Virus record (IMG/VR): IMGVR_UViG_3300007636_000002 | Span: 1-28,163 of that record | DNA: 28,163 nucleotides | Strand: one strand, 5' to 3' | Source of the DNA: a virus | Part shown: positions 5,874 to 14,062 of the stretch, piece by piece | Numbering within the stretch: position 1 is the first letter of the stretch | Layout: every line of letters begins with the position of its first letter | Program-made: the position numbers and the translations under genes | The notes under the pieces: model-generated | Told to the model about the DNA's origin: nothing | Databases searched by the model: none | What the model saw: the letters and a program-made list of their open reading frames with translations, nothing else

Positions 5874-6705
5874 AATTTCTGATTGCTTTAAATAATGGAT
5901 GGCGATAAGAACCTGCTGGAGTTTTTTGGAAGAACGTGAACGTTGCTACCTTGCCAATATATGAGTCGGCATTGGTAAACATGGTTCGCATGATATCATA
6001 AGTTTCCATAACAGGCATACCAAAAGAAATACCGTTACTGTCAACAGCAAGAAACTTCCCAATTGTACCACTACGTTTACCTTTTCCTTCAACAAAGCCA
6101 GTGATTGTTGCTTCTGTGTCTTGGAAAGCTTTGAACTTGAGTAGATTGTTTGATCGTTTGTTTTCATAAGGTAAGTTTGTACGTAATATAGAGCCTTCGT
6201 AACCGGCTTTTAGGTTTTGATTGTTAAAGATAGTAGCTAAGCCTTTGTTAGGTGTTAGCGTAGTTGCTACTGATCGCACTTGAGGTAGGTTATAGCCTAG
6301 AAGCATAAGACGTATACATCTGTTACGGAAATCAAATGAATGATTGTTAGTTGTTTGGATATAATCGTAGCAGTGAAACTGAATAAGAGTTTGATCTTTA
6401 GTAGCATGTTGCGTGCGTACAAGAGATATAATCTTGTTAAAGTTATCTTTGAAGTCGTGATTGTATAGCTCGCCATCGAGTACAACAGTTGGGTTTGCTG
6501 CAAAGAAAGGTTTTAGTTGGCGACGTAGATGCTGAACGTTTTTGAACTTTTTACCGCTGCGACTGAATGCGCCTTGCTTTGTAAAGATACAACGTACGCC
6601 GTCAAGCTTGGGTTGAAGGAACATAGTTTGATTCCAGTTGATAGCTTTTTTTTGTTGTGCGAATGCAAGCATTGCAAATTTACCTTGTTTAATCGAGTTT
6701 ATCAT
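5866..6705 (-). CDS. ATP-dependent DNA ligase
   Basis: A 279-aa minimal ligase. The nucleophile is Lys33 in motif I, KLDGVR. Other nucleotidyltransferase motifs follow: SRSGK (48-52, motif Ia), VLDGEL with Glu79 (motif III), YEGSIL with Glu170 (motif IV), and LLKFK with Lys190 and Lys192 (motif V). The C-terminal OB domain ends SYRHPLFKAIRNYE, similar to the end of small phage and kinetoplastid-type ligases. It would seal nicks after replication and recombination. The start overlaps the preceding UVR-like gene by 17 nt. At 279 aa it is shorter than T7 ligase (359 aa), but all core motifs are present. Confidence 0.95.
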   Translation of the reverse strand: MINSIKQGKFAMLAFAQQKKAINWNQTMFLQPKLDGVRCIFTKQGAFSRSGKKFKNVQHLRRQLKPFFAANPTVVLDGELYNHDFKDNFNKIISLVRTQHATKDQTLIQFHCYDYIQTTNNHSFDFRNRCIRLMLLGYNLPQVRSVATTLTPNKGLATIFNNQNLKAGYEGSILRTNLPYENKRSNNLLKFKAFQDTEATITGFVEGKGKRSGTIGKFLAVDSNGISFGMPVMETYDIMRTMFTNADSYIGKVATFTFFQKTPAGSYRHPLFKAIRNYE

Positions 6706-6976
6706 ATTTGTTTTTAATTATTTCTATTTTTCTTTTTATTATCTTAGCTTTTTCGTAAGATTCTTCTTGTACGTATCTGTCTAGTAAGCTTTGTAATCTT
6801 ATAAGCTCTAGGTCTAAAGTTTGTTTATCAAGGTCATCTTTACTTTCTACTATAAAGTCTGATTGACTATCTTGATTTTCAAAGACTAGATGTACTTCTG
6901 ATGATACATTGAATATAGCTTTTACAACTTTAGTTGCTACACGTACAGCTAAATCATCCATTTGTTTGTCTGTCAT
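6689..6976 (-). CDS. Hypothetical protein with UVR-like coiled coil
   Basis: A 95-aa protein. The N-terminus MTDKQMDDLAVRVATKVVKA is amphipathic. The C-terminal stretch LQSLLDRYVQEESYEKAKII continuing with KRKIEII (about 64-90) has the pattern of the UVR domain that joins UvrB and UvrC and recurs in Clp-associated proteins, so it is probably a helical-hairpin interaction module. It is the first gene after promoter copy 1, only 3 nt from the GGATAATA box, so the transcript may be leaderless or start at an internal Met (codon 6). It overlaps the ligase by 17 nt. Exact role unknown. Confidence 0.75.
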   Translation of the reverse strand: MTDKQMDDLAVRVATKVVKAIFNVSSEVHLVFENQDSQSDFIVESKDDLDKQTLDLELIRLQSLLDRYVQEESYEKAKIIKRKIEIIKNKYDKLD

Positions 6977-6979
6977 ATA

Positions 6980-7012
6980 TATTATCCTATTGAGTTCGTA
7001 TTTAGTTTGTAA
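6980..7012 (-). promoter_or_regulatory. Repeated promoter-like element, copy 1
   Basis: On the minus strand: TTACAAACTAAATACGA, spacer ACTCAATA (8 nt), then GGATAATA. It fills nearly the whole gap between the 154-aa and 95-aa genes. It is the last (leftmost) copy, so it should drive the UVR-like, ligase, lipoprotein, sigma, recombination and replication genes. The box ends 3 nt before the ATG. Confidence 0.75.
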
Positions 7013-7477
7013 TTATCTTGCATTCCAGTCTGCTAATGATTGTAAAAACTCTACGCCTGTCATTTCCTCTTTTTCAGGCTCATGATCAATATCGTATTTC
7101 TCAATCAGTTTGTCAGGTTGTCCTACAAAAACTACTTTGTCTTGCCATACATCGTAAATCGATATAAAGACCTCAGATGTGTCGTTTTTAGGGAAGATAG
7201 TATAGATATACTCTTGACTCATATCAACCTCAGAGATAGCTAGAAGTTCAATTCTGTTAGTGTCTTCTAGTATACTTACAAGGTCAATTGCAAATTCACT
7301 TACGTTTTTATCTTTAATAGTTTTACAAACCTTAGCTAAGTCTACGCCTAATCCTGCAGGATAACCATCCCAATGTCTATATATATTGAAAAAAGCTTTT
7401 TCTACGTGATTATGTGCTTGGTCATAAGCCAAACCCTCTTGTCTTGGTATTACTCTTATTAATGCTCGTGTTGCCAT
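7013..7477 (-). CDS. Conserved phage hypothetical protein (YRHWDGYP motif)
   Basis: A 154-aa protein starting MATRALIRVIPRQEG with the conserved phrase FNIYRHWDGYPAGLG (50-64). This N-terminal pattern is recognisable from a family of uncharacterised phage and bacterial proteins. The remainder alternates beta and alpha (EYIYTIFPKND, EVFISIYDVWQDKVVFVGQP). No catalytic motif is evident. Its ATG overlaps the stop of the preceding 50-aa gene as TAATG. It ends just before promoter copy 1. Function unknown; the operon suggests early or middle expression. Confidence 0.85.
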   Translation of the reverse strand: MATRALIRVIPRQEGLAYDQAHNHVEKAFFNIYRHWDGYPAGLGVDLAKVCKTIKDKNVSEFAIDLVSILEDTNRIELLAISEVDMSQEYIYTIFPKNDTSEVFISIYDVWQDKVVFVGQPDKLIEKYDIDHEPEKEEMTGVEFLQSLADWNAR

Positions 7478-7629
7478 TATGTTATAGTTTGTTGATTTAA
7501 AATGTGTAGTATTATATGTCTAGCACTACCTTGTAGCGTCTCTAAGACACCGTTTTCGTTAGCGTATTGTAACGTATAGCTCATTGGTTTGTGTGGCCTA
7601 GGAGGCGGACTATATTTATTACCTGCCAT
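7477..7629 (-). CDS. Hypothetical 50-aa protein
   Basis: MAGNKYSPPPRPHKPMSYTL starts a 50-codon gene with a Pro-rich N-terminus and a more ordered C-terminal half (ETLQGSARHIILHILNQQ). It is linked by TAATG overlaps to both neighbours (53-aa gene upstream, 154-aa gene downstream), which is the main support for it being real. No family recognised. Confidence 0.65.
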   Translation of the reverse strand: MAGNKYSPPPRPHKPMSYTLQYANENGVLETLQGSARHIILHILNQQTIT

Positions 7630-7790
7630 TATTCCGTTAGATTAGATTTAAACCATTCTCTAGCTTCGTCTAAAGTTTCTTTAGGAAATTGATCTCTGTA
7701 TCCATTGTATATATAATTTACTTTCATATCTACGTTAAGTAATTTAATACCGTTGGTTTTGTCTAGTATTTCTATTTGTTCTTCTGTCAT
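7629..7790 (-). CDS. Hypothetical 53-aa protein
   Basis: Begins MTEEQIEILDKTNGIKLLNV and ends DEAREWFKSNLTE. The acidic composition and amphipathic C-terminal helix look protein-like. The stop shares a base with the next ATG, and the start is one base from the preceding stop. Unrecognised; it belongs to the microgene run. Confidence 0.65.
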   Translation of the reverse strand: MTEEQIEILDKTNGIKLLNVDMKVNYIYNGYRDQFPKETLDEAREWFKSNLTE

Positions 7791-7791
7791 G

Positions 7792-7995
7792 TTATGTATT
7801 TGTTTCGTTTAGTAATGCTAAGTGATTCCATATTGTTAACTCTCTGCGTTTAAAAGAGATCTGAGCGTCTATCATTTCTTGAGTATAAGCAAAGTAAGGT
7901 TTTTGTATTGCTAAGTATTCTAAGCTATTTTCTAGTACGTTAATCTTAGCAAAGCATTTGTTTGCTGTTCTGTCTTTAATTTCTGCGTCTGTCAT
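7792..7995 (-). CDS. Hypothetical 67-aa protein
   Basis: MTDAEIKDRTANKCFAKINV starts a mostly helical 67-aa product rich in aromatic residues (YLAIQKPYFAYTQEMIDAQ). It starts 2 nt after the 64-aa gene and is followed after 1 nt by the 53-aa gene. The MT-acidic start resembles several neighbours (MTEE, MTDK). Function unknown. Confidence 0.7.
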   Translation of the reverse strand: MTDAEIKDRTANKCFAKINVLENSLEYLAIQKPYFAYTQEMIDAQISFKRRELTIWNHLALLNETNT

Positions 7996-7997
7996 AA

Positions 7998-8192
7998 TTA
8001 TCCTATATAAGTTAATCCTTTATAATTAAACCAAGACTTGACGCCTGGAGTTTTAACTACCTCGTCGTGCTCATCAATGTCTTCACACGATATATAAGCG
8101 AACGTTGGAGGTAAATCGCCTAGCATATAGCCTTTATAGCTTTTACCATTTAGTTTAATTCTTGTTTTGTTTACTTTTTTAAGTTTATTCAT
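7998..8192 (-). CDS. Hypothetical 64-aa protein
   Basis: I use the ATG giving MNKLKKVNKTRIKLNGKSYK. It overlaps the stop of the upstream 36-aa gene by 8 nt (ATGAATAA), the same junction as ligase to lipoprotein. The frame is open further upstream to 8246, but that extension lies over the 36-aa gene. The product is basic at the N-terminus and beta-rich after it (GYMLGDLPPTFAYISCEDID), possibly a small barrel. Unrecognised. Confidence 0.65.
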   Translation of the reverse strand: MNKLKKVNKTRIKLNGKSYKGYMLGDLPPTFAYISCEDIDEHDEVVKTPGVKSWFNYKGLTYIG

Positions 8193-8295
8193 ATTTACAT
8201 TTTTTACATTTACATGGGATCCACATTGAATACTTGCACATTTCATTATCTTCTGGAGTAACTATCGTAAGCGGGTATTTAATTGTGTATTTCAT
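8185..8295 (-). CDS. 36-aa Cys-rich microprotein, probable zinc knuckle
   Basis: MKYTIKYPLTIVTPEDNEMC begins a 36-codon gene ending IPCKCKKCKYE. Cys28, Cys30 and Cys33 form CxCxxC, with Cys20 as a possible fourth ligand. It overlaps both neighbours by 17 nt (upstream) and 8 nt (downstream). The cysteine cluster and tight tiling support expression. It may be a zinc-binding microprotein; the partner is unknown. Confidence 0.55.
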   Translation of the reverse strand: MKYTIKYPLTIVTPEDNEMCKYSMWIPCKCKKCKYE

Positions 8296-8401
8296 TATTT
8301 TTTCTTGAGTATTTCTTTTTATTCTTATAGACGTTAGGTCTTGTTGCTTGCCATATTTTTATAAGAGCTTCTTTGCTAAGTTTTGGGGACTTTGTTTTCA
8401 T
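8279..8401 (-). CDS. Hypothetical 40-aa basic protein
   Basis: MKTKSPKLSKEALIKIWQAT, continuing RPNVYKNKKKYSRKNNEIHN, is a very basic 40-aa product, probably one helix plus a Lys/Arg tail able to contact nucleic acid. It is the first gene after promoter copy 2, 8 nt from GGATAATA. The end overlaps the 36-aa gene by 17 nt. Confidence 0.65.
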   Translation of the reverse strand: MKTKSPKLSKEALIKIWQATRPNVYKNKKKYSRKNNEIHN

Positions 8402-8409
8402 ATCACTTA

Positions 8410-8442
8410 TATTATCCATTAACAGTCGTATTTACTTTGTAA
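8410..8442 (-). promoter_or_regulatory. Repeated promoter-like element, copy 2
   Basis: Minus strand: TTACAAAGTAAATACGA, spacer CTGTTAAT (8 nt), GGATAATA. The stop codon of the upstream 74-aa gene (ACA AAG TAA) lies inside the first box. The next ATG is 8 nt downstream, giving a leaderless or nearly leaderless transcript if GGATAATA is the -10 element. Confidence 0.75.
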
Positions 8443-8656
8443 ATAGTTCTCTGTTCTTAGTGTTATTGAATACCCATAAGTTGCCTTTTGAATGAGTTCT
8501 ACGTGTTCTAGATTTGATTCTATCAACTTCCATAGACTGTTCAAACTCTTTTTGTGTAAAGCCTTGACAGTGATTGCCTTGACGTTCTTTATTCCACTGA
8601 ATTACTTTAATTCTTTTCTGTTCTGCCATATATTGTTTAAGTTCTGTCATTGTCAT
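8432..8656 (-). CDS. Hypothetical 74-aa basic protein
   Basis: MTMTELKQYMAEQKRIKVIQ starts a polar, strongly basic protein (RIKSRTRRTHSKGNLWVFNN). Two candidate ATGs lie two codons apart. The C-terminus ...NRELFTK is dictated by promoter copy 2, whose first box supplies the codons for Thr-Lys-stop. It may bind nucleic acid; no family recognised. Confidence 0.65.
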   Translation of the reverse strand: MTMTELKQYMAEQKRIKVIQWNKERQGNHCQGFTQKEFEQSMEVDRIKSRTRRTHSKGNLWVFNNTKNRELFTK

Positions 8657-8659
8657 AAT

Positions 8660-8761
8660 CTAATTGTTTAAAAGTTCGTACTGTTGTTGCTGTAAATATT
8701 GTTGATGTTGTTGCTCTAACTGTATATTATACTGTGCTATTATATCTCTATTCCTTTTCAT
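8660..8761 (-). CDS. Hypothetical 33-aa Gln-rich microprotein
   Basis: MKRNRDIIAQYNIQLEQQHQ, continuing QYLQQQQYELLNN, contains ten Gln residues and is likely one amphipathic helix. It overlaps the upstream 113-aa gene by 14 nt and ends 3 nt before the next gene. Without it, 8657-8747 would be empty. Function unknown. Confidence 0.5.
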   Translation of the reverse strand: MKRNRDIIAQYNIQLEQQHQQYLQQQQYELLNN

Positions 8762-9089
8762 TAGTAAATGCTTCAAATGATTCTTCATCCATTTTGCTTT
8801 CAAGGTAGTCTAGCATATCGTATTCGTCAAACCAGTCTTCTATATCAAAACACATAACACTTACTGTTTGATTTCTTGGAAAAGCATTTTTAATTTCACT
8901 CATAATTGTATCAAAATCAGGTTTGTAGTAGTATACTTCAGCGAATGGAAGATTTTGAACATCTTGTGTTACATAGAATAGCTCGTAGCCATCAGCTGTG
9001 CTTAGTTCGCCGATTTCTATATCTGCATGCGAAGGTGTGTGAATGAAGTTAATATTTGCTTCTTCTTGAAATTTTTCTAATGTTGTCAT
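8748..9089 (-). CDS. Hypothetical 113-aa acidic protein
   Basis: MTTLEKFQEEANINFIHTPS begins a very acidic protein with a dense Asp/Glu C-terminal half (MCFDIEDWFDEYDMLDYLES). The overall charge and small size resemble DNA-mimic or host-inhibitor proteins of phage early regions, but that is only a suggestion. The ATG follows AGGATAAT, formed by the Gly-stop codons of the preceding gene; the AGGA may act as a rare Shine-Dalgarno-like site. Not recognised. Confidence 0.7.
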   Translation of the reverse strand: MTTLEKFQEEANINFIHTPSHADIEIGELSTADGYELFYVTQDVQNLPFAEVYYYKPDFDTIMSEIKNAFPRNQTVSVMCFDIEDWFDEYDMLDYLESKMDEESFEAFTNEKE

Positions 9090-9090
9090 A

Positions 9091-9198
9091 TTATCCTAGT
9101 TTTAGTATTGTATTATTGAACTGATCTTCGGTTATTTCGCCTGCTAAAAACAGATGAATTAGTTCTTGTGTTAAATTTACTTTGTCATGTATTGTCAT
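9091..9198 (-). CDS. Hypothetical 35-aa microprotein
   Basis: MTIHDKVNLTQELIHLFLAG, continuing EITEDQFNNTILKLG, reads as two short helices with a turn (LAGEITEDQF), an EF- or bundle-like helical pair. It is the first gene behind promoter copy 3, with a 16-nt leader. Its final Gly-stop (GGATAA) lies just upstream of the 113-aa gene start. Confidence 0.6.
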   Translation of the reverse strand: MTIHDKVNLTQELIHLFLAGEITEDQFNNTILKLG

Positions 9199-9211
9199 AT
9201 TGTTTTCTTTA

Positions 9212-9301
9212 CTATATTATCCGTCTGTGTTCGTATTTACTTTGTAATTTGTCAAGTATTTTATTACCTGCTTTTAATGATATTTCTTTATTTAGTATCA
9301 T
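9212..9301 (-). CDS. Hypothetical 29-aa microprotein reading through promoter copy 3
   Basis: MILNKEISLKAGNKILDKLQ, continuing SKYEHRRII. The last 11 codons are the promoter element itself, and the stop (TAG) comes just after GGATAATA. The start is one base past the stop of the 58-aa gene. Either a real microprotein whose end was shaped by the promoter, or a chance frame. The tight junction favours the first. Confidence 0.4.
   Translation of the reverse strand: MILNKEISLKAGNKILDKLQSKYEHRRII
9215..9247 (-). promoter_or_regulatory. Repeated promoter-like element, copy 3
   Basis: Minus strand: TTACAAAGTAAATACGA, spacer ACACAGAC (8 nt), GGATAATA, then a 16-nt A-rich leader to the ATG at 9198. 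The whole element lies within the 29-aa frame. Confidence 0.75.
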
Positions 9302-9302
9302 T

Positions 9303-9479
9303 CTAAATATTAGTTTTCTCAATGTTTTTTATTTTCTTTAGCTCTTTTTCTACTGCGGTTCGAGACATTTTACCTTCCATTTGTTTTAGTATTAGACTTG
9401 TTACGTCTACGCCATTATATATTGCTTGCATATTTTTTTTTATTATTGAGCCTGTAATCCAGACTTCGTTATCATTCAT
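9303..9479 (-). CDS. Hypothetical 58-aa protein
   Basis: MNDNEVWITGSIIKKNMQAI starts a 58-aa product with a long basic helix at the C-terminus (RTAVEKELKKIKNIEK). Its ATG shares a base with the stop of the 20-aa frame upstream (TAATG). Good protein-like amphipathicity; no family recognised. Confidence 0.65.
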   Translation of the reverse strand: MNDNEVWITGSIIKKNMQAIYNGVDVTSLILKQMEGKMSRTAVEKELKKIKNIEKTNI

Positions 9480-9541
9480 TATCTTAATTTTTGTTTGTTA
9501 AATATTGTACTAAAGTTTCTTCTGTATCTTTTGTCTATCAT
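9479..9541 (-). CDS. Possible 20-aa microprotein
   Basis: MIDKRYRRNFSTIFNKQKLR is a basic 20-residue frame filling the gap between the 111-aa gene (stop at 9543) and the 58-aa gene, with a TAATG overlap at its end. It may serve translational coupling more than a protein function. Confidence 0.4.
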   Translation of the reverse strand: MIDKRYRRNFSTIFNKQKLR

Positions 9542-9542
9542 A

Positions 9543-9878
9543 TTATGCTTCTTGTAATTCTGTTTCCATTTGCTCCCAGTTTGGTGTGTCGACGTGATCC
9601 ATCAAGTAGTCATGCAGACAAGCGTATGCAGCTTGGTGTATATTATTTGGTCTGCCGTATAAGTCGTGGTCTTCGTAGTGGTATTCACTATTGTTAATTA
9701 GCATTAATTCGCAATCTCTAGTGTATATTACTGCATTGTCAAGATATTCGTGGAAGTAAGTGTAAAATTCATCTTGATCGTTTATTTCACCTTGATGAAA
9801 AGCTAGCCATACTTCATCTCTAAAGTTTTCGTGTAAGTTTAGTAGTTCGTTGTTTTCTAATTTTAAGTATAAATCCAT
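9543..9878 (-). CDS. Hypothetical 111-aa acidic protein
   Basis: MDLYLKLENNELLNLHENFR begins a strongly acidic protein rich in Tyr, His and Asp (NDQDEFYTYFHEYLDNAVIY; SEYHYEDHDLY). Like the 113-aa neighbour, this suggests a host-interacting or DNA-mimic protein, without proof. It is the first gene after promoter copy 4, with a 17-nt A/T leader. Not recognised. Confidence 0.7.
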   Translation of the reverse strand: MDLYLKLENNELLNLHENFRDEVWLAFHQGEINDQDEFYTYFHEYLDNAVIYTRDCELMLINNSEYHYEDHDLYGRPNNIHQAAYACLHDYLMDHVDTPNWEQMETELQEA

Positions 9879-9895
9879 ATTTTATTTGTTTATTA

Positions 9896-9928
9896 TATTA
9901 TCCGATTGTATTCGTATTTACTTTGTGA
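9896..9928 (-). promoter_or_regulatory. Repeated promoter-like element, copy 4
   Basis: Minus strand: TCACAAAGTAAATACGA (one change from consensus), spacer ATACAATC (8 nt), GGATAATA. The upstream 76-aa gene stops inside the first box (ACA AAG TAA). Leader of 17 nt to the 111-aa gene. Confidence 0.75.
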
Positions 9929-10148
9929 GTATGTGAGCAAAAAACTCTGATCTTACTACATCTGTACTCGTCCATTCATTAAATGGATTGAATGATTCTA
10001 AGTAGAAATTAAATAGATCTTCCTCGTTTCCTTCTAGTACTAACGTATCTAATCCGTCAACGCTCGCATACGCAACTAGTTTTACTTTGCGATCATATAA
10101 TTGCTCTAATGTGTTCTGTAAGTCTACAGTATCTATTTCTATTTGCAT
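9918..10148 (-). CDS. Hypothetical 76-aa acidic protein
   Basis: MQIEIDTVDLQNTLEQLYDR starts a small acidic alpha/beta product (KLVAYASVDGLDTLVLEG, then NEEDLFNFYLESFNPFNEW). It ends ...FFAHILTK, with the Thr-Lys-stop codons coming from promoter copy 4. Its start overlaps the 39-aa gene by 10 nt. Unrecognised. Confidence 0.7.
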   Translation of the reverse strand: MQIEIDTVDLQNTLEQLYDRKVKLVAYASVDGLDTLVLEGNEEDLFNFYLESFNPFNEWTSTDVVRSEFFAHILTK

Positions 10149-10258
10149 AATAATGTTTTTAATTCGTTTTTTAATTGTATAAGTTGTATTCTACTAGTTA
10201 AGCAAAATCTACTACGTGTAGATAAATAACCTATGCGTTTTCTGTATTCTTTTTCCAT
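10139..10258 (-). CDS. Hypothetical 39-aa basic protein
   Basis: MEKEYRKRIGYLSTRSRFCL, continuing TSRIQLIQLKNELKTLLCK, is basic and probably helical with two Cys. It overlaps the 42-aa gene upstream by 28 nt and the 76-aa gene downstream by 10 nt. The overlaps make either boundary uncertain, but no better frame covers 10149-10230. Confidence 0.5.
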   Translation of the reverse strand: MEKEYRKRIGYLSTRSRFCLTSRIQLIQLKNELKTLLCK

Positions 10259-10359
10259 ATCTTTATTTCTTTTAAGCATTCAGTTAAGCTAATTTCATTA
10301 AGGTTATAGCCTTTTTTAGCTAAGTATATTTCAAATTTCTTATCGTATATGTTATTCAT
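10231..10359 (-). CDS. Hypothetical 42-aa protein
   Basis: MNNIYDKKFEIYLAKKGYNL, continuing NEISLTECLKEIKIWKKNTE, looks like a small helical protein with a charged surface. The ATG follows the TAG of the 54-aa gene after one base. Unrecognised. Confidence 0.6.
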   Translation of the reverse strand: MNNIYDKKFEIYLAKKGYNLNEISLTECLKEIKIWKKNTENA

Positions 10360-10360
10360 A

Positions 10361-10525
10361 CTAGTAAAAGTCTTGTCTAATCCAGTTGTTGATAATTCTG
10401 CTAACTTTTAAGCGATCGCTTCTATCTAAAGCTATAAAATCTTTATCGCCTGACCAACCATTGTTGAGGTTAGTTTTGTCTTCGTAGATTTTACACGCTA
10501 CGTCGTGATAATTTAATGTATTCAT
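10361..10525 (-). CDS. Hypothetical 54-aa protein
   Basis: MNTLNYHDVACKIYEDKTNL, continuing with NNGWSGDKDFIALDRSDRLK, then VSRIINNWIRQDFY. It is well formed, with Trp residues and an amphipathic C-terminal helix. It is the first confident gene after promoter copy 5, but 105 nt away, with the tRNA-like element in the leader. Function unknown. Confidence 0.65.
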   Translation of the reverse strand: MNTLNYHDVACKIYEDKTNLNNGWSGDKDFIALDRSDRLKVSRIINNWIRQDFY

Positions 10526-10640
10526 AATTTAATTTTTTAGTTGCGTAGCGAGAATCGAACTCGCATAAACCATTTACGCAGTCATTAGTTAATATTTTAG
10601 AGGCAACTAATTCTATAAAACTCTTTATTCTATTATCCAT
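10491..10640 (-). CDS. Alternative 49-aa frame over the tRNA-like element
   Basis: A 49-codon frame, MDNRIKSFIELVASKILTND onward, starts inside promoter copy 5 (its ATG overlaps the G of GGATAATA) and runs through the tRNA-like element into the 54-aa gene. If GGATAATA is a -10 box, this ATG would not be transcribed from copy 5. It could still be read from promoters 6 and 7 upstream. I rank it below the RNA-structure reading. Confidence 0.3.
   Translation of the reverse strand: MDNRIKSFIELVASKILTNDCVNGLCEFDSRYATKKLNYEYIKLSRRSV
10539..10608 (-). ncRNA. tRNA-like element (T-arm and acceptor), degenerate tRNA or attP candidate
   Basis: On the minus strand a perfect T-arm is visible at 10564-10548: stem GCGAG, loop TTCGATT (matching the TTCRANN tRNA consensus), stem CTCGC. 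It is followed by TACGCAACT. A 70-nt span closes with AGTTGC pairing GCAACT, near tRNA length. An alternative 6-bp stem TGCGTA/TACGCA closes tightly around the T-arm with a 10-nt bulge. No convincing anticodon stem or D-arm with GG is present, so it is not a standard tRNA. Options: a decayed tRNA, a structured leader of the 54-aa gene, or a copy of a host tRNA 3' end used as attachment site. Confidence 0.4.
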
Positions 10641-10663
10641 TAAGGATCGTATTTACTTTGTAT
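10631..10663 (-). promoter_or_regulatory. Repeated promoter-like element, copy 5
   Basis: Minus strand: ATACAAAGTAAATACGA (first base varies), spacer TCCTTAAT (8 nt), GGATAATA. The 43-aa gene upstream stops inside it (ACA AAG TAA). It precedes the tRNA-like element and then the 54-aa gene. Confidence 0.75.
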
Positions 10664-10784
10664 CGTCTAGTAGTAATTTTATTACTGCTTGCTTATCATG
10701 TTGATCACATGTGTCATAACCGAACTCGCCGAAGTGTACTTGTGCTAACCGATCCATTTCGTTGATAAATTGTAGTGCATTCAT
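10653..10784 (-). CDS. Hypothetical 43-aa protein
   Basis: MNALQFINEMDRLAQVHFGE, continuing FGYDTCDQHDKQAVIKLLLD, then DTK. Two helices around a His/Asp-rich centre are likely. The last two codons and stop (ACA AAG TAA) are part of promoter copy 5. Leader of 19 nt from promoter copy 6. Unrecognised. Confidence 0.65.
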   Translation of the reverse strand: MNALQFINEMDRLAQVHFGEFGYDTCDQHDKQAVIKLLLDDTK

Positions 10785-10803
10785 AGTTTTTATTTGTTTA
10801 TAT

Positions 10804-10836
10804 TATTATCCATTTACTGTCGTACTTACTTTGTAA
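10804..10836 (-). promoter_or_regulatory. Repeated promoter-like element, copy 6
   Basis: Minus strand: TTACAAAGTAAGTACGA (one change), spacer CAGTAAAT (8 nt), GGATAATA, 19-nt A-rich leader to the 43-aa gene. The upstream 58-aa gene reads through almost the whole element and stops at its GGA-TAA. Confidence 0.75.
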
Positions 10837-10982
10837 AGCCATTCTTCTATAGTTTCATTGTAAAGCATTTCTATCTTACTAGCTTTCATTATAACTATTT
10901 CTTTAGCTATCTGCTTTTCGCTACCGTAATAGCTTTCGTTCATTTTCGCTAATTCTAGCTTAGCTAAGTTTTGTACAGTCAT
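10806..10982 (-). CDS. Hypothetical 58-aa protein, first leftward gene
   Basis: MTVQNLAKLELAKMNESYYG, continuing SEKQIAKEIVIMKASKIEML, is a helical charged protein. The C-terminal 11 residues (YKVSTTVNG at the end) are encoded by promoter copy 6, with stop GGA-TAA in the GGATAATA box. It is the first gene of the leftward block, with a 45-nt leader from copy 7 that contains a hairpin. Confidence 0.65.
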   Translation of the reverse strand: MTVQNLAKLELAKMNESYYGSEKQIAKEIVIMKASKIEMLYNETIEEWLYKVSTTVNG

Positions 10983-10997
10983 TGTAGTGATATTAGG

Positions 10998-11023
10998 CGT
11001 AAGAGCTTCGTTGCTTGCTTACG
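10998..11023 (-). promoter_or_regulatory. Hairpin in leader of first leftward gene
   Basis: Minus-strand CGTAAG pairs with CTTACG across 14 nt that can also pair AGC with GCT. It lies just after promoter copy 7, near the expected RNA 5' end, where it could stabilise the transcript. No U-tract follows, so a terminator is unlikely. Confidence 0.4.
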
Positions 11024-11027
11024 TATA

Positions 11028-11060
11028 TATTATCCAGCTAGCATCGTATTTAGTTTGTAA
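11028..11060 (-). promoter_or_regulatory. Repeated promoter-like element, copy 7
   Basis: Minus strand: TTACAAACTAAATACGA, spacer TGCTAGCT (8 nt), GGATAATA. It is the outermost copy, at the edge of the non-coding divergence region, and would open the leftward block. Confidence 0.75.
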
Positions 11061-11090
11061 AAAGGTGTAGTATAATTTAATAGACAGGAA

Positions 11091-11240
11091 AGTATAGATA
11101 GTATACCGCAGTGACACTATGTCATGACGGATTGTCATATGATATACTATAGATATATATAATAGTAATGTAGTATAGTATAGATATAACTAATAGTAGT
11201 AGTATAAAGTAATCTTATAGTATATATAGTAGTATAGATA
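11091..11240 (+). repeat. AGTATAGATA iterons (three exact copies)
   Basis: Exact decamers start at 11091, 11177 and 11231, with related strings between (ACTATAGATATATA near 11146, TAGTAGTATAAAG near 11198). Irregular spacing (86 and 54 nt) and low complexity weaken the case for true iterons; they could reflect slippage in AT-rich DNA. Confidence 0.4.
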
Positions 11241-11417
11241 GAACTTATGACTAAGAAACCCTGAATATATAGGGGGTATCGGAGGAAAAAGCCGAAAGTT
11301 ATGGCAAAAAACCCAAAAAAAGAGGGGCCGTGGGGTAAATGAAAATCATTCTGTAACTGGCTGGTAGTGAAGCATATAGAGGTATAGTACTTTACTTCCC
11401 TATAATAGCATAAAACA

Positions 11418-11461
11418 GTGACAGTAGCCTATTAAGGTTACTAGTAAGGGGCTATTGTCAC
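11418..11461. promoter_or_regulatory. 12-bp inverted repeat with 20-nt loop
   Basis: GTGACAGTAGCC (11418-11429) pairs with GGCTATTGTCAC (11450-11461), with one G-T pair. The loop contains the palindrome TTACTAGTAA. It lies about 100 nt before the first rightward gene. There is no T-tract on either side, so an operator, an origin hairpin or an RNA-leader element fits better than an intrinsic terminator. Confidence 0.5.
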
Positions 11462-11478
11462 ACCCCTATGGTTATTAT

Positions 11479-11495
11479 TCGTACTAAGTTTGTAA
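11479..11495. promoter_or_regulatory. Partial copy of the repeated box; possible rightward -7 element
   Basis: On the minus strand TTACAAACTTAGTACGA matches the first box of the seven-copy element at 15 of 17 positions (counting the G/C variant), but no GGATAATA stands 8 nt away. On the plus strand the same bases contain TAAGTTTG, an exact match to the Bacteroidota TAnnTTTG -7 consensus, 68 nt before the first rightward ATG. A TTG stands 27 nt upstream, further than the usual 19-21, so the promoter call is weak. Confidence 0.35.
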
Positions 11496-11559
11496 GATTA
11501 GTAAATAACATGTAAAATGTGTAAGTATATAGAGTATACAAACATACAAAATAACAACT

Positions 11560-11658
11560 ATGGCTGCAAAAGTAGGTAATACAGCAATATCAGCGGTATA
11601 TGTCGGTGGTACAACCATCAGTGCTATGTACGTAGGTACAACACAGGTATATCCATAA
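11560..11658 (+). CDS. 32-aa miniprotein with duplicated fibre-type repeat
   Basis: MAAKVGNTAISAVYVGGTTI, continuing SAMYVGTTQVYP. It is two tandem units, ISAVYVGGTT and ISAMYVGTTQVYP. The phrase (V/I)xxxYVGTTxVYP is familiar as a short beta repeat in phage tail and baseplate proteins, here alone as a free-standing peptide. First rightward gene, 13 nt before the first fibre gene, so probably a virion component. A remnant of a larger gene is the alternative. Confidence 0.6.
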   Translation: MAAKVGNTAISAVYVGGTTISAMYVGTTQVYP

Positions 11659-11671
11659 CAAAATATAACAC

Positions 11672-14062
11672 ATGTCTATAATTTATTCTTACCCCACATC
11701 ACAACCAACGGTAGATGACCTATTAATAGGTACAGACGTTAACGATGAAAACGCAACTAAGAGCTTTACTGTTCAAAGTCTTGTGTCACTCATCAACGCA
11801 GCTGCAGGTTCAGGCACAGTAACCTCTGTTCAGATAGCTACTGATGCTTTTCTTTCAGCCACTGGCGGTCCGATCACAGATGCAGGCGTTATCACTATGG
11901 GTCTAACCGCTACAGGTACTCCATCTACTGCTACTTTTCTTCGTGGAGATAATCAGTGGGTAACACCTACTGTATCTGCAGGTATAGGTGTTTTTAACGA
12001 AGGTATTTCTATAACTAACGACATGTCTAGTGTTAATTTTGTAGGTAATGGCGTTTCTTCATCTTCAGATTCTTTTGGTAATGTTACAGTTAGCATTGTA
12101 GGAGCGACATCTACAGTAGACACCGTATCAGCAGGCACAGGAATAGGAGTTAATCAAACAACGGGCGACATTATAGTTTCAAATACAGGCGTTACTAGCA
12201 TAATAGCTGGAACTAATGTTACGTTAGCAGGTACTGGAACTGGTCAAGTAACTATAAACGCTAGTGGAGGAACTAATGGAGTAACTATAGTTCAACCAGG
12301 TAGTGGTCTTGTATTGGAGTCTGGAACAACAACATCTAACCCTACTATAGGAATAGATTACACAGGCGCAGACACTTATATAACAGTACCTAGTTCAGCT
12401 ACAATAACCTCAACTGATTCTATTAATTTTCAAGATGGAACCACAGGCGTTAGCAAAACCACATTAGCAGATATTCCTGTAACCGCACTGACGTTAGTTA
12501 ATACAGCTATAACAGATTCAGTAGCTGATGTTGTTAAAAATAACACAGATACATATACAAGTCTTGGTGATGTTGATCAAGTTATAACACTTACAGATGC
12601 TGAGTACACGGCCATAGCAACCAAAGACGGTAATACATTATATCTAACTACTACTACAGGTGTAACTAATTACACTAAAACATTAGCGGTAGATTCTACA
12701 GGTATAACAGGTACTCAATATGTTTTAACTGGAGATCAAATAGGAGCAACTAAAACAGGAGCATCAGGATCTAACTATGCTTTTTCAACAGGTATAAGTT
12801 TAACTAGCGGTTACCAATGGGCTAGCGGAGCGCCTACCATTAGTAATGCCGCAGGAGTATTTTCAAGCACAGGCACTGTTACTACAAATCTAGGAACTGG
12901 TACCATAGAAGCTATACCAGCTGGATCGGGAACAGCTACGGTTACTATAGTAGACGGTTTAACAAAAGAAAACGGTGCGGTTAACGGAACCAACTACCAA
13001 ATTGTAGCCGGCACAAACCCACTTACAGGTACAGCTCCATTTACTTATACTAGTTCTAATTTCGGCGTAGCAGCTAGTATAATAGGTCTTGCTGCTGAAT
13101 GGGAAATAGTAAGTCCAGTTTATACATACAGTCCAACTAGTGGAACTGTAGCAAGCGGGCAAACAGCTCCTGTAACATGTACTGTAACTGGAACTGTAAG
13201 AAAGAAATCATACACGTTGACATATAATATTACTGATTCTAACACTGGTGGAACTATAAACACAGATTATACTATAAGTAATTCAACCACAGGTCAACCA
13301 TTTACAGGCGGAACAGCTCCTTTATCTCAAACGATGACCGCGGTCTATAATACAGCATACAACTTTAGCACTAATTACACTAATGTATCGGGTGCAGGAA
13401 CATCGACTACCGTAAATAGTAGAACTTTAGCAAACCCAATAACAGGTAATATAACTGCTGATGTTACTCTGTCTAATACAATAGTAAGCACGACAGGCTC
13501 TACAAGCGGTACAGCTGCATTAACTACTACAAATCAAATTACTTCTCCAGATGGAACAGGTACTGGAACAGGCTATACAGCTCAAGCTCAATATAGCATT
13601 GGATCTGGTAGTACTAACTGGATAAACTACACTGGAGTAATAACCCAAACAGTTGGTACTGTTGTTAATTTCCAATATACTTTTAATATAAGTTCTGGTT
13701 ACACGGCTCAAACTGGTCCTACGTTCTCAGCTATAACTCCAATAACTATAACTAGTGGAGCTCAAACAGCAACAACTACACTAAGCGGCGCTGTGATAGC
13801 ACAGTTAACAAGTATCAACAATTGTACATCTTTAAAAAGTTCTGCTGCACTAGCTTGTGCTGCTTACCCAGGATTTAATTTCTACTATCACAATGGATCT
13901 GGAACTTATCCAACACAGAATGACAACATATACTCAGACGCAGCAGGAAATAATCCACTAGCAAACGGTTACTACGCTATATACTACGGCTCTGCAACCG
14001 GAGTAACTATATATGTTACAGGCGGCGCGGGCTTGATAAGTCAAAATCCAACTACTTGCTAA
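11672..14062 (+). CDS. Large tail-fibre protein 1
   Basis: A 796-aa Ser/Thr/Gly-rich protein of low charge and many short beta repeats, typical of trimeric phage fibres. The N-terminus MSIIYSYPTSQPTVDDLLIG is shared with the next gene, so it is probably the virion-docking module. The phrase GTPSTATFLRGDNQWVTP (about 82-99) is a repeat type seen in flavobacterial fibre proteins. The middle carries Ig-like stretches (YTYSPTSGTVASGQTAPVT). The C-terminal 80 residues (SINNCTSLKSSAALACAAYP through NGYYAIYYGSATGVTIYVTG, ending NPTTC) hold three Cys and look like a separate receptor-binding tip. Host-receptor recognition is inferred. The upstream leader is A/C-rich with no Shine-Dalgarno site. Confidence 0.85.
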   Translation: MSIIYSYPTSQPTVDDLLIGTDVNDENATKSFTVQSLVSLINAAAGSGTVTSVQIATDAFLSATGGPITDAGVITMGLTATGTPSTATFLRGDNQWVTPTVSAGIGVFNEGISITNDMSSVNFVGNGVSSSSDSFGNVTVSIVGATSTVDTVSAGTGIGVNQTTGDIIVSNTGVTSIIAGTNVTLAGTGTGQVTINASGGTNGVTIVQPGSGLVLESGTTTSNPTIGIDYTGADTYITVPSSATITSTDSINFQDGTTGVSKTTLADIPVTALTLVNTAITDSVADVVKNNTDTYTSLGDVDQVITLTDAEYTAIATKDGNTLYLTTTTGVTNYTKTLAVDSTGITGTQYVLTGDQIGATKTGASGSNYAFSTGISLTSGYQWASGAPTISNAAGVFSSTGTVTTNLGTGTIEAIPAGSGTATVTIVDGLTKENGAVNGTNYQIVAGTNPLTGTAPFTYTSSNFGVAASIIGLAAEWEIVSPVYTYSPTSGTVASGQTAPVTCTVTGTVRKKSYTLTYNITDSNTGGTINTDYTISNSTTGQPFTGGTAPLSQTMTAVYNTAYNFSTNYTNVSGAGTSTTVNSRTLANPITGNITADVTLSNTIVSTTGSTSGTAALTTTNQITSPDGTGTGTGYTAQAQYSIGSGSTNWINYTGVITQTVGTVVNFQYTFNISSGYTAQTGPTFSAITPITITSGAQTATTTLSGAVIAQLTSINNCTSLKSSAALACAAYPGFNFYYHNGSGTYPTQNDNIYSDAAGNNPLANGYYAIYYGSATGVTIYVTGGAGLISQNPTTC

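Follow-up and report, generated by a model that had tools for sequence, protein, structure and literature searches.

The viral record IMGVR_UViG_3300007636_000002, which consists of 28,163 bases and was analyzed whole (hereafter the window), carries seven copies of a two-part DNA element that is best read as a phage-specific promoter family, present in phages that also encode their own sigma factor. The window is a partial tailed-phage genome. Its leftward replication arm encodes a primase-helicase, an exonuclease, an ERF annealing protein, the sigma factor, a helix-turn-helix (HTH) protein, a ligase and many small proteins, and its rightward arm carries GroEL/GroES. In terminase, portal and structural proteins, its relatives come closest to Flavobacterium elemo phages, Cellulophaga phi38:1-type phages and the spring-water podovirus MW202828, and Bacteroidota are therefore the most likely hosts. 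On sequence grounds, the promoter reading of the elements is well supported.

The initial annotation described the element as TTACAAA(G/C)TAAATACGA-N8-GGATAATA, with at most one or two changes per copy. A pattern search recovered the same seven copies, all on the minus strand, four matching exactly and three with one mismatch. The whole-record search returned seven reverse matches, none forward and none to a reversed-pattern control, and 100 dinucleotide shuffles yielded 0.00 matches. The 17 nucleotides (nt) between ACAAAG and GGATAATA, interpreted as a -35/-10 spacing, were measured as described. Two other statements held in part. The 8-nt spacer is invariant in length but not wholly unconserved, since its last base (position -14) is T, C, A or G in 70, 16, 12 and 0% of copies in relatives. 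All copies face one way, but not each is upstream of a leftward gene: copy 5 precedes a tRNA-like sequence, with the next open reading frame (ORF) about 100 nt downstream. The 5′ part of the element, called the box below, often overlaps the end of the upstream gene, whose stop codon is in several copies the TAA within the box. A look-alike of this 5′ half at about 11482-11498 (-), which lacks GGATAATA and scores below threshold, was left out of the count.

Exact matches to the element were found in at least 119 stretches of IMG/VR, many on contigs of 60-72 kb; the phages bearing it are numerous, uncultured, mostly marine and probably infect Bacteroidota. Contigs were picked by the element or by the sigma gene, and the related genomes are not independent of one another. 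Fifteen large related genomes, scanned piecewise with up to five mismatches allowed, contained 113 copies, against 0 in Markov controls. Equal frequency in both orientations, or occurrence inside genes, had been named beforehand as grounds for rejecting a promoter. The scan gave no such grounds: within each genome the copies keep to one strand, 112 of the 113 being on the coding strand of the replication arm, and the sole opposite copy is the lowest scoring. The three genomes mapped gene by gene have their copies in the replication arm, mostly just 5′ of small genes; their structural arms have none. Across 84,980 bacterial and archaeal species genomes, a relaxed 20-base pattern gave a single match, about the chance expectation, among ordinary genes on a Bacteroidales contig. 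The strand bias, this near-absence from cellular genomes and the purine described next all support the earlier proposal of a phage-specific promoter family.

To define promoter anatomy, 698 distinct copies picked without reference to downstream bases were aligned. A conserved 17-bp block at -38 to -22 stands at a fixed register before a constant GATAATA. In 687 of the 698 copies (98%), A or G stands 7 nt after GATAAT, and in none does C; this position fits +1 if GATAAT is the -10 hexamer at -12 to -7; the same 687 copies thus have the layout of a sigma-dependent promoter, a -10 hexamer with a purine +1 about 7 nt downstream. Counted from GGATAATA, this purine is the 6th nt in 98% of copies, within the range of 5-8 nt originally proposed for transcript starts. 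We infer from these regularities that transcription initiates at the elements, at this purine. Bacteroidota sigma-A reads TTTG/TANNTTTG (PMC6847099), whereas the element has no TAnnTTTG at -12 to -5; set against this published consensus, the element indeed lacks the housekeeping promoter sequence, as had been noted.

An ATG stands exactly at +1 in 126 of the 698 copies, no neighboring position coming close, and in 120 of these 126 it opens an ORF of at least 40 codons. Start codons placed at +1 imply leaderless mRNAs, predicted for about one copy in six. Many of the remaining copies start GTAA or AAAT, with A-rich leaders. In 188 copies (about a quarter) there is an ATG at -2 to +1, which opens a gene in only eight; many of these read ATGTAA, a start followed immediately by a stop. 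Each of the seven predicted +1 bases in the window is a purine and none coincides with the first base of an ATG; the mRNA from copy 1 would be leaderless, or nearly so, if a 2-nt slack in its start is allowed. In flavobacteria, only a minority of transcripts lack a leader, 5.5% in F. psychrophilum (PMC9723704), and in F. johnsoniae 87% of the predicted transcripts carry a leader of more than 10 nt (PMC6847099).

The proposed reader of the -10 is a sigma-70-family protein encoded in the same operon. Its region 2 scores 26.7 bits with Pfam Sigma70_r2 (cut-off 24), and the protein scores 58.3 bits with TIGR02937 (cut-off 42.9), matches PHROG 351 and aligns with SigA structures. Region 4 scores 20.6 bits with Pfam Sigma70_r4, below the cut-off of 24.1; a profile aligns it to SigA region 4, and an AlphaFold model of moderate overall confidence places C-terminal helices there. 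Assignment to the FliA/WhiG (sigma-28) subfamily was not supported (TIGR02479, 42.3 bits versus a cut-off of 189.6), nor was assignment to RpoD (RpoD_Cterm, 53.7 versus 354) or SigB/F/G (SigBFG, 42.9 versus 234). The GATAA sequence presumably resembles the -10 of FliA promoters.

The sigma gene accompanies the element in 30 of 31 large element-bearing records, that is, in all 30 that cover the locus; the 31st is cut off within the ligase and primase genes, which flank it. Conversely, 51 of the 57 sigma loci with at least 5 kb upstream have the element, five of the other six show the same layout with a different box, and only L291 has none. Neither elemoF nor MW202828 yielded an element by scanning or a sigma relative by tblastn. 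Element and sigma appear to have been gained or lost together between relatives, which points to this sigma factor as the probable reader of the element. In a few contigs (G004, G011 and G024), stops or frameshifts break up the sigma gene, reflecting either assembly error or real inactivation.

While the -10 is constant, the box is lineage-specific, with at least four versions at a fixed register. The alternatives to the box of the window are TCGAAA..TAATACGA (L249, L257 and L274), ATATAAGTTTGACACGA (L264) and CGGACTTAATA (L270). Some 100 distinct sigma loci have at least 4 kb upstream, and 93 of them show at least three copies of a lineage-specific box, at one register before GATAAT. The constant -10 beside a conserved sigma fits reading of the -10 by that sigma. 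In Mantel-type tests, box distance was unrelated to region-4 distance or to HTH-protein distance, and the L264 sigma, 84-85% identical to those of L246 and L251 with a near-identical region-4 recognition helix, accompanies a wholly different box. As box changes do not track sigma region 4, we infer a second, box-reading factor, the weakest step of the argument.

Several candidates for this role were set aside. Sigma region 4 as sole reader was rejected for want of correlation and on the L264 counter-example. The conserved HTH neighbor, which gave no confident structural match, shows no correlation with box distance, and its gene is missing from the TCGAA-box lineages, including a 63-kb record. 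Two families near sigma, an SSB-like protein and the primase, gave partial correlations of up to 0.37, perhaps through linkage only, and were not used. The -13 base and sigma region 4 were correlated (0.29), but so were this base and unrelated genes, and this was taken as clade structure. Comparison of a class III genome with close class I-like relatives revealed several divergent early genes but no clear box reader.

Late genes carry a separate signal. In sigma-bearing phages, TATATTATATTATG precedes structural genes, usually 11 nt 5′ of the ATG, with 24 matches before late genes and 0 before early genes, and it recurs in genomes of all four box classes. This second putative promoter motif, also seen as TTTAATTATATTATATTATG directly before structural genes in all box classes (L159 before 7708; L429, L433, L440 and L445), occupies the place of TAnnTTTG in sigma-less relatives. 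TAnnTTTG precedes 15 of 56 late ORFs in elemoF and MW202828 together, versus 13 of 628 in sigma-bearing genomes (Fisher p ~1e-10), and similar host-type boxes were seen at two of five genes inspected in phi38:1, so that the comparison covers two sigma-less genomes and a brief look at a third. The Elemovirus and Callevirus (phi38:1) phages of Flavobacteriia have structural genes related to those of the phages studied here, and elemoF also has a related terminase, a similar two-arm layout and, as in the window, GroEL and GroES. Unlike the window, elemoF has neither sigma nor element, and its late genes, like those of phi38:1, have host-type promoters. These differences suggest that the phage group left the host promoter code for one of its own.

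We consider it probable that host RNA polymerase core with the phage sigma reads the -10 of the elements while a second factor reads the box, much as in T4 middle promoters. The elements would be promoters of early or middle genes of the replication arm, with GATAATA as the -10 (-12 to -6), a start at the purine 7 nt after GATAAT, and the 17-bp block as a phage-specific box replacing the ordinary -35. Successive copies ahead of small genes would produce nested leftward transcripts, some leaderless, running towards the sigma gene and reinforcing its expression; the first sigma would have to come from a host-type promoter or from read-through. A wider version, in which a large uncultured clade of Bacteroidota phages has replaced the host promoter language genome-wide, one sigma reads [G/T]ATA[A/T]T at both replication-arm and late promoters, and a separate fast-evolving box reader gives each lineage a private code, is a speculation that we would not yet expect to hold. 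If true, such a code would perhaps prevent the regulators of one phage from serving a co-infecting relative. Reading of both the element -10 and the late motif by one sigma, through this common core, is a guess.

Both components have precedents. Phages phiEco32 and 7-11 encode a sigma factor whose cognate promoters, those of middle and late genes, lie 5′ of the sigma gene itself (PMC4331800). As there, a phage sigma would act on host core at conserved low-copy promoters; those phages infect enterobacteria, and the present elements differ in having a 17-bp lineage-specific box and in occurring in the replication arm only. T4 middle promoters combine a MotA activator box with a -10, with the participation of AsiA (PMC2988021). 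The block at -38 to -22 corresponds to a T4-like activator box centered near -30, in place of a -35 and followed by a stringent -10, as a working likeness only: T4 uses host sigma-70 and a MotA box of ~9-10 bp located 12 bp from the -10, instead of a 17-bp box and a phage sigma. No MotA or AsiA relative turned up, although no dedicated search was made. T4 late promoters are read by gp55 at TATAAATA. The late motif TATATTATATTATG likewise looks like a -10-only phage promoter, separate from the elements. Bacteroidota sigma-A promoters, presumed to be the host background, stand before late genes of sigma-less relatives, and the elements differ from them in lacking TTTG boxes and using GATAATA.

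The main competing explanation, which we find rather improbable, is that host holoenzyme, perhaps helped by an activator of phage or host origin on the box, reads the elements at once and that the phage sigma, itself made from them, serves only late TATATTATA promoters, like T4 gp55. It would account for the confinement of the elements to the replication arm, upstream of the sigma gene, and for the separate late motif; T4 early promoters, moreover, are long, conserved and host-read (PMC2988021). However, Bacteroidota sigma-A recognizes TTTG/TANNTTTG and not GATAATA (PMC6847099), and for F. psychrophilum sigma-A, one sigma-54 and seven ECF factors are listed, the motifs quoted including none of this kind (PMC9723704). 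The element is also absent from host genomes save for the one chance-level match, and it comes and goes with the sigma gene. Alternatively, the phage sigma might read both halves by itself, region 4 contacting the box. No regulator but this sigma is shared by every box class, the HTH gene being missing from one, yet box and region-4 distances are uncorrelated, L264 pairs nearly the same region-4 helix as L246/L251 with a different box, and usual region-4 contacts fall short of a 17-nt box reaching -22; we regard this as unlikely.

Readings that dispense with a sigma-dependent promoter fare worse. The repeats could be operators, replication-initiator sites or other protein-binding repeats, in the manner of the 14 palindromes GTGTCGTTAACGACAC in the early arm of the related MW202828, but the element is not palindromic, and its strict orientation, coupling to gene starts, +1 purine and constant -10-like half make this very unlikely. 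Still less credible is a T7-like single-subunit polymerase promoter, AATACGA plus 8 nt with a start at the GG of GGATAATA, which we took up as a lead because spacing and TACGA presumably recall the T7 promoter. PF00940 matched in 0 of 31 large records, although control genomes gave no match either, and the purine 13 nt further on, with ATG exactly there, would need another explanation; the T7-like reading was set aside after these two analyses. A virion polymerase of multi-subunit type was also discarded, as large proteins contain no conserved DxDGD motif.

Several observations weigh against reading of the elements by the phage sigma with a second factor. Co-occurrence was found within related phages, on contigs picked by element or sigma, and the scan for the element took in only two genomes without sigma. 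The elements lie upstream of the sigma gene, the true target of this sigma might just as well be the late motif, and covariation does not back the HTH candidate for box reader. The search for a conserved host-type promoter that might set off the cascade came up empty: TTG-N17-21-TAnnTTTG is not enriched in relatives (141 matches versus 142 in Markov sequence), and host-type promoters were dropped as the usual opening of the early arm.

Little is known of how Bacteroidota phages control transcription, and no description of the element or sigma was found in openly licensed literature. Phage sigmas with cognate promoters and activator boxes joined to a -10 are known in kind; what is new is the family itself, its lineage-specific boxes beside a constant -10 and sigma, the leaderless starts predicted here and the exchange of host-type promoters for others. 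The sigma gene, the lineage-specific boxes, the leaderless starts and the distinct late motif go beyond the initial annotation. Sequence alone was enough to read a sigma factor, two promoter classes, a base-precise predicted start and recurrent leaderless starts. Different boxes with near-identical sigmas across lineages constitute a natural experiment in promoter evolution and, if confirmed, sigma and promoters could provide an orthogonal expression system for Bacteroidota, whose promoter code is unusual.

Table 1. Elements, regulatory genes and host-type promoter match in the window
Feature	Position	Strand	Remarks
Sigma-70-family factor, 250 aa	3843..4595	-	Regions 2, 3.0 and putative 4; would read the GATAATA -10
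HTH protein, 205 aa	4582..5199	-	Gene overlaps sigma start; conserved neighbor, possible accessory factor
Element copy 1	6980..7012	-	Predicted +1 at 6974 (G); 95-aa ORF 6976..6689, ATG 2 nt upstream of +1
Element copy 2	8410..8442	-	Predicted +1 at 8404 (G); ORF 8401..8279 (40 aa) starts 3 nt later
Element copy 3	9215..9247	-	Predicted +1 at 9209 (A); ORF 9198..9091 (35 aa) starts 11 nt later
Element copy 4	9896..9928	-	Predicted +1 at 9890 (A); ORF 9878..9543 (111 aa) starts 12 nt later
Element copy 5	10631..10663	-	Predicted +1 at 10625 (A); tRNA-like sequence, then ORF 10525..10361 (54 aa)
Element copy 6	10804..10836	-	Predicted +1 at 10798 (A); ORF 10784..10653 (43 aa) starts 14 nt later
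Element copy 7, most upstream	11028..11060	-	Predicted +1 at 11022 (G); ORF 10982..10806 (58 aa) starts 40 nt later
Host-type promoter match TTG-N20-TATGTTTG	11539..11569	-	Single match, between arms; possible first promoter of replication arm

Other features of the region were recorded. A conserved dyad, GTGACAATAGCC...GGCTACTGTCAC, lies between the arms (window 11400-11480, -), and dyad-like sequences occur near the first element in several relatives and 5′ of the HTH gene in some. In MW202828, some of the GTGTCGTTAACGACAC palindromes (L218 from 43000; L219) stand directly before genes, as a different regulatory system at the same position. A 62-aa zinc-ribbon protein (MYCRCGNKVHPIRL..C..C; e.g. 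L428 6732-6920, -) has GATAATA close upstream in 62 of 65 loci, and its cysteine pattern presumably recalls that of TraR/DksA proteins. The tRNA-like sequence behind copy 5 (window 10530-10610, -) has an 8-bp closing stem and a T-arm, GCGAGTTCGATTCTCGC; neither ARAGORN nor Rfam called it, and an Rfam scan of 10000-11700 was empty. Relatives carry real tRNA genes in the replication arm, in G016 one directly behind an element.

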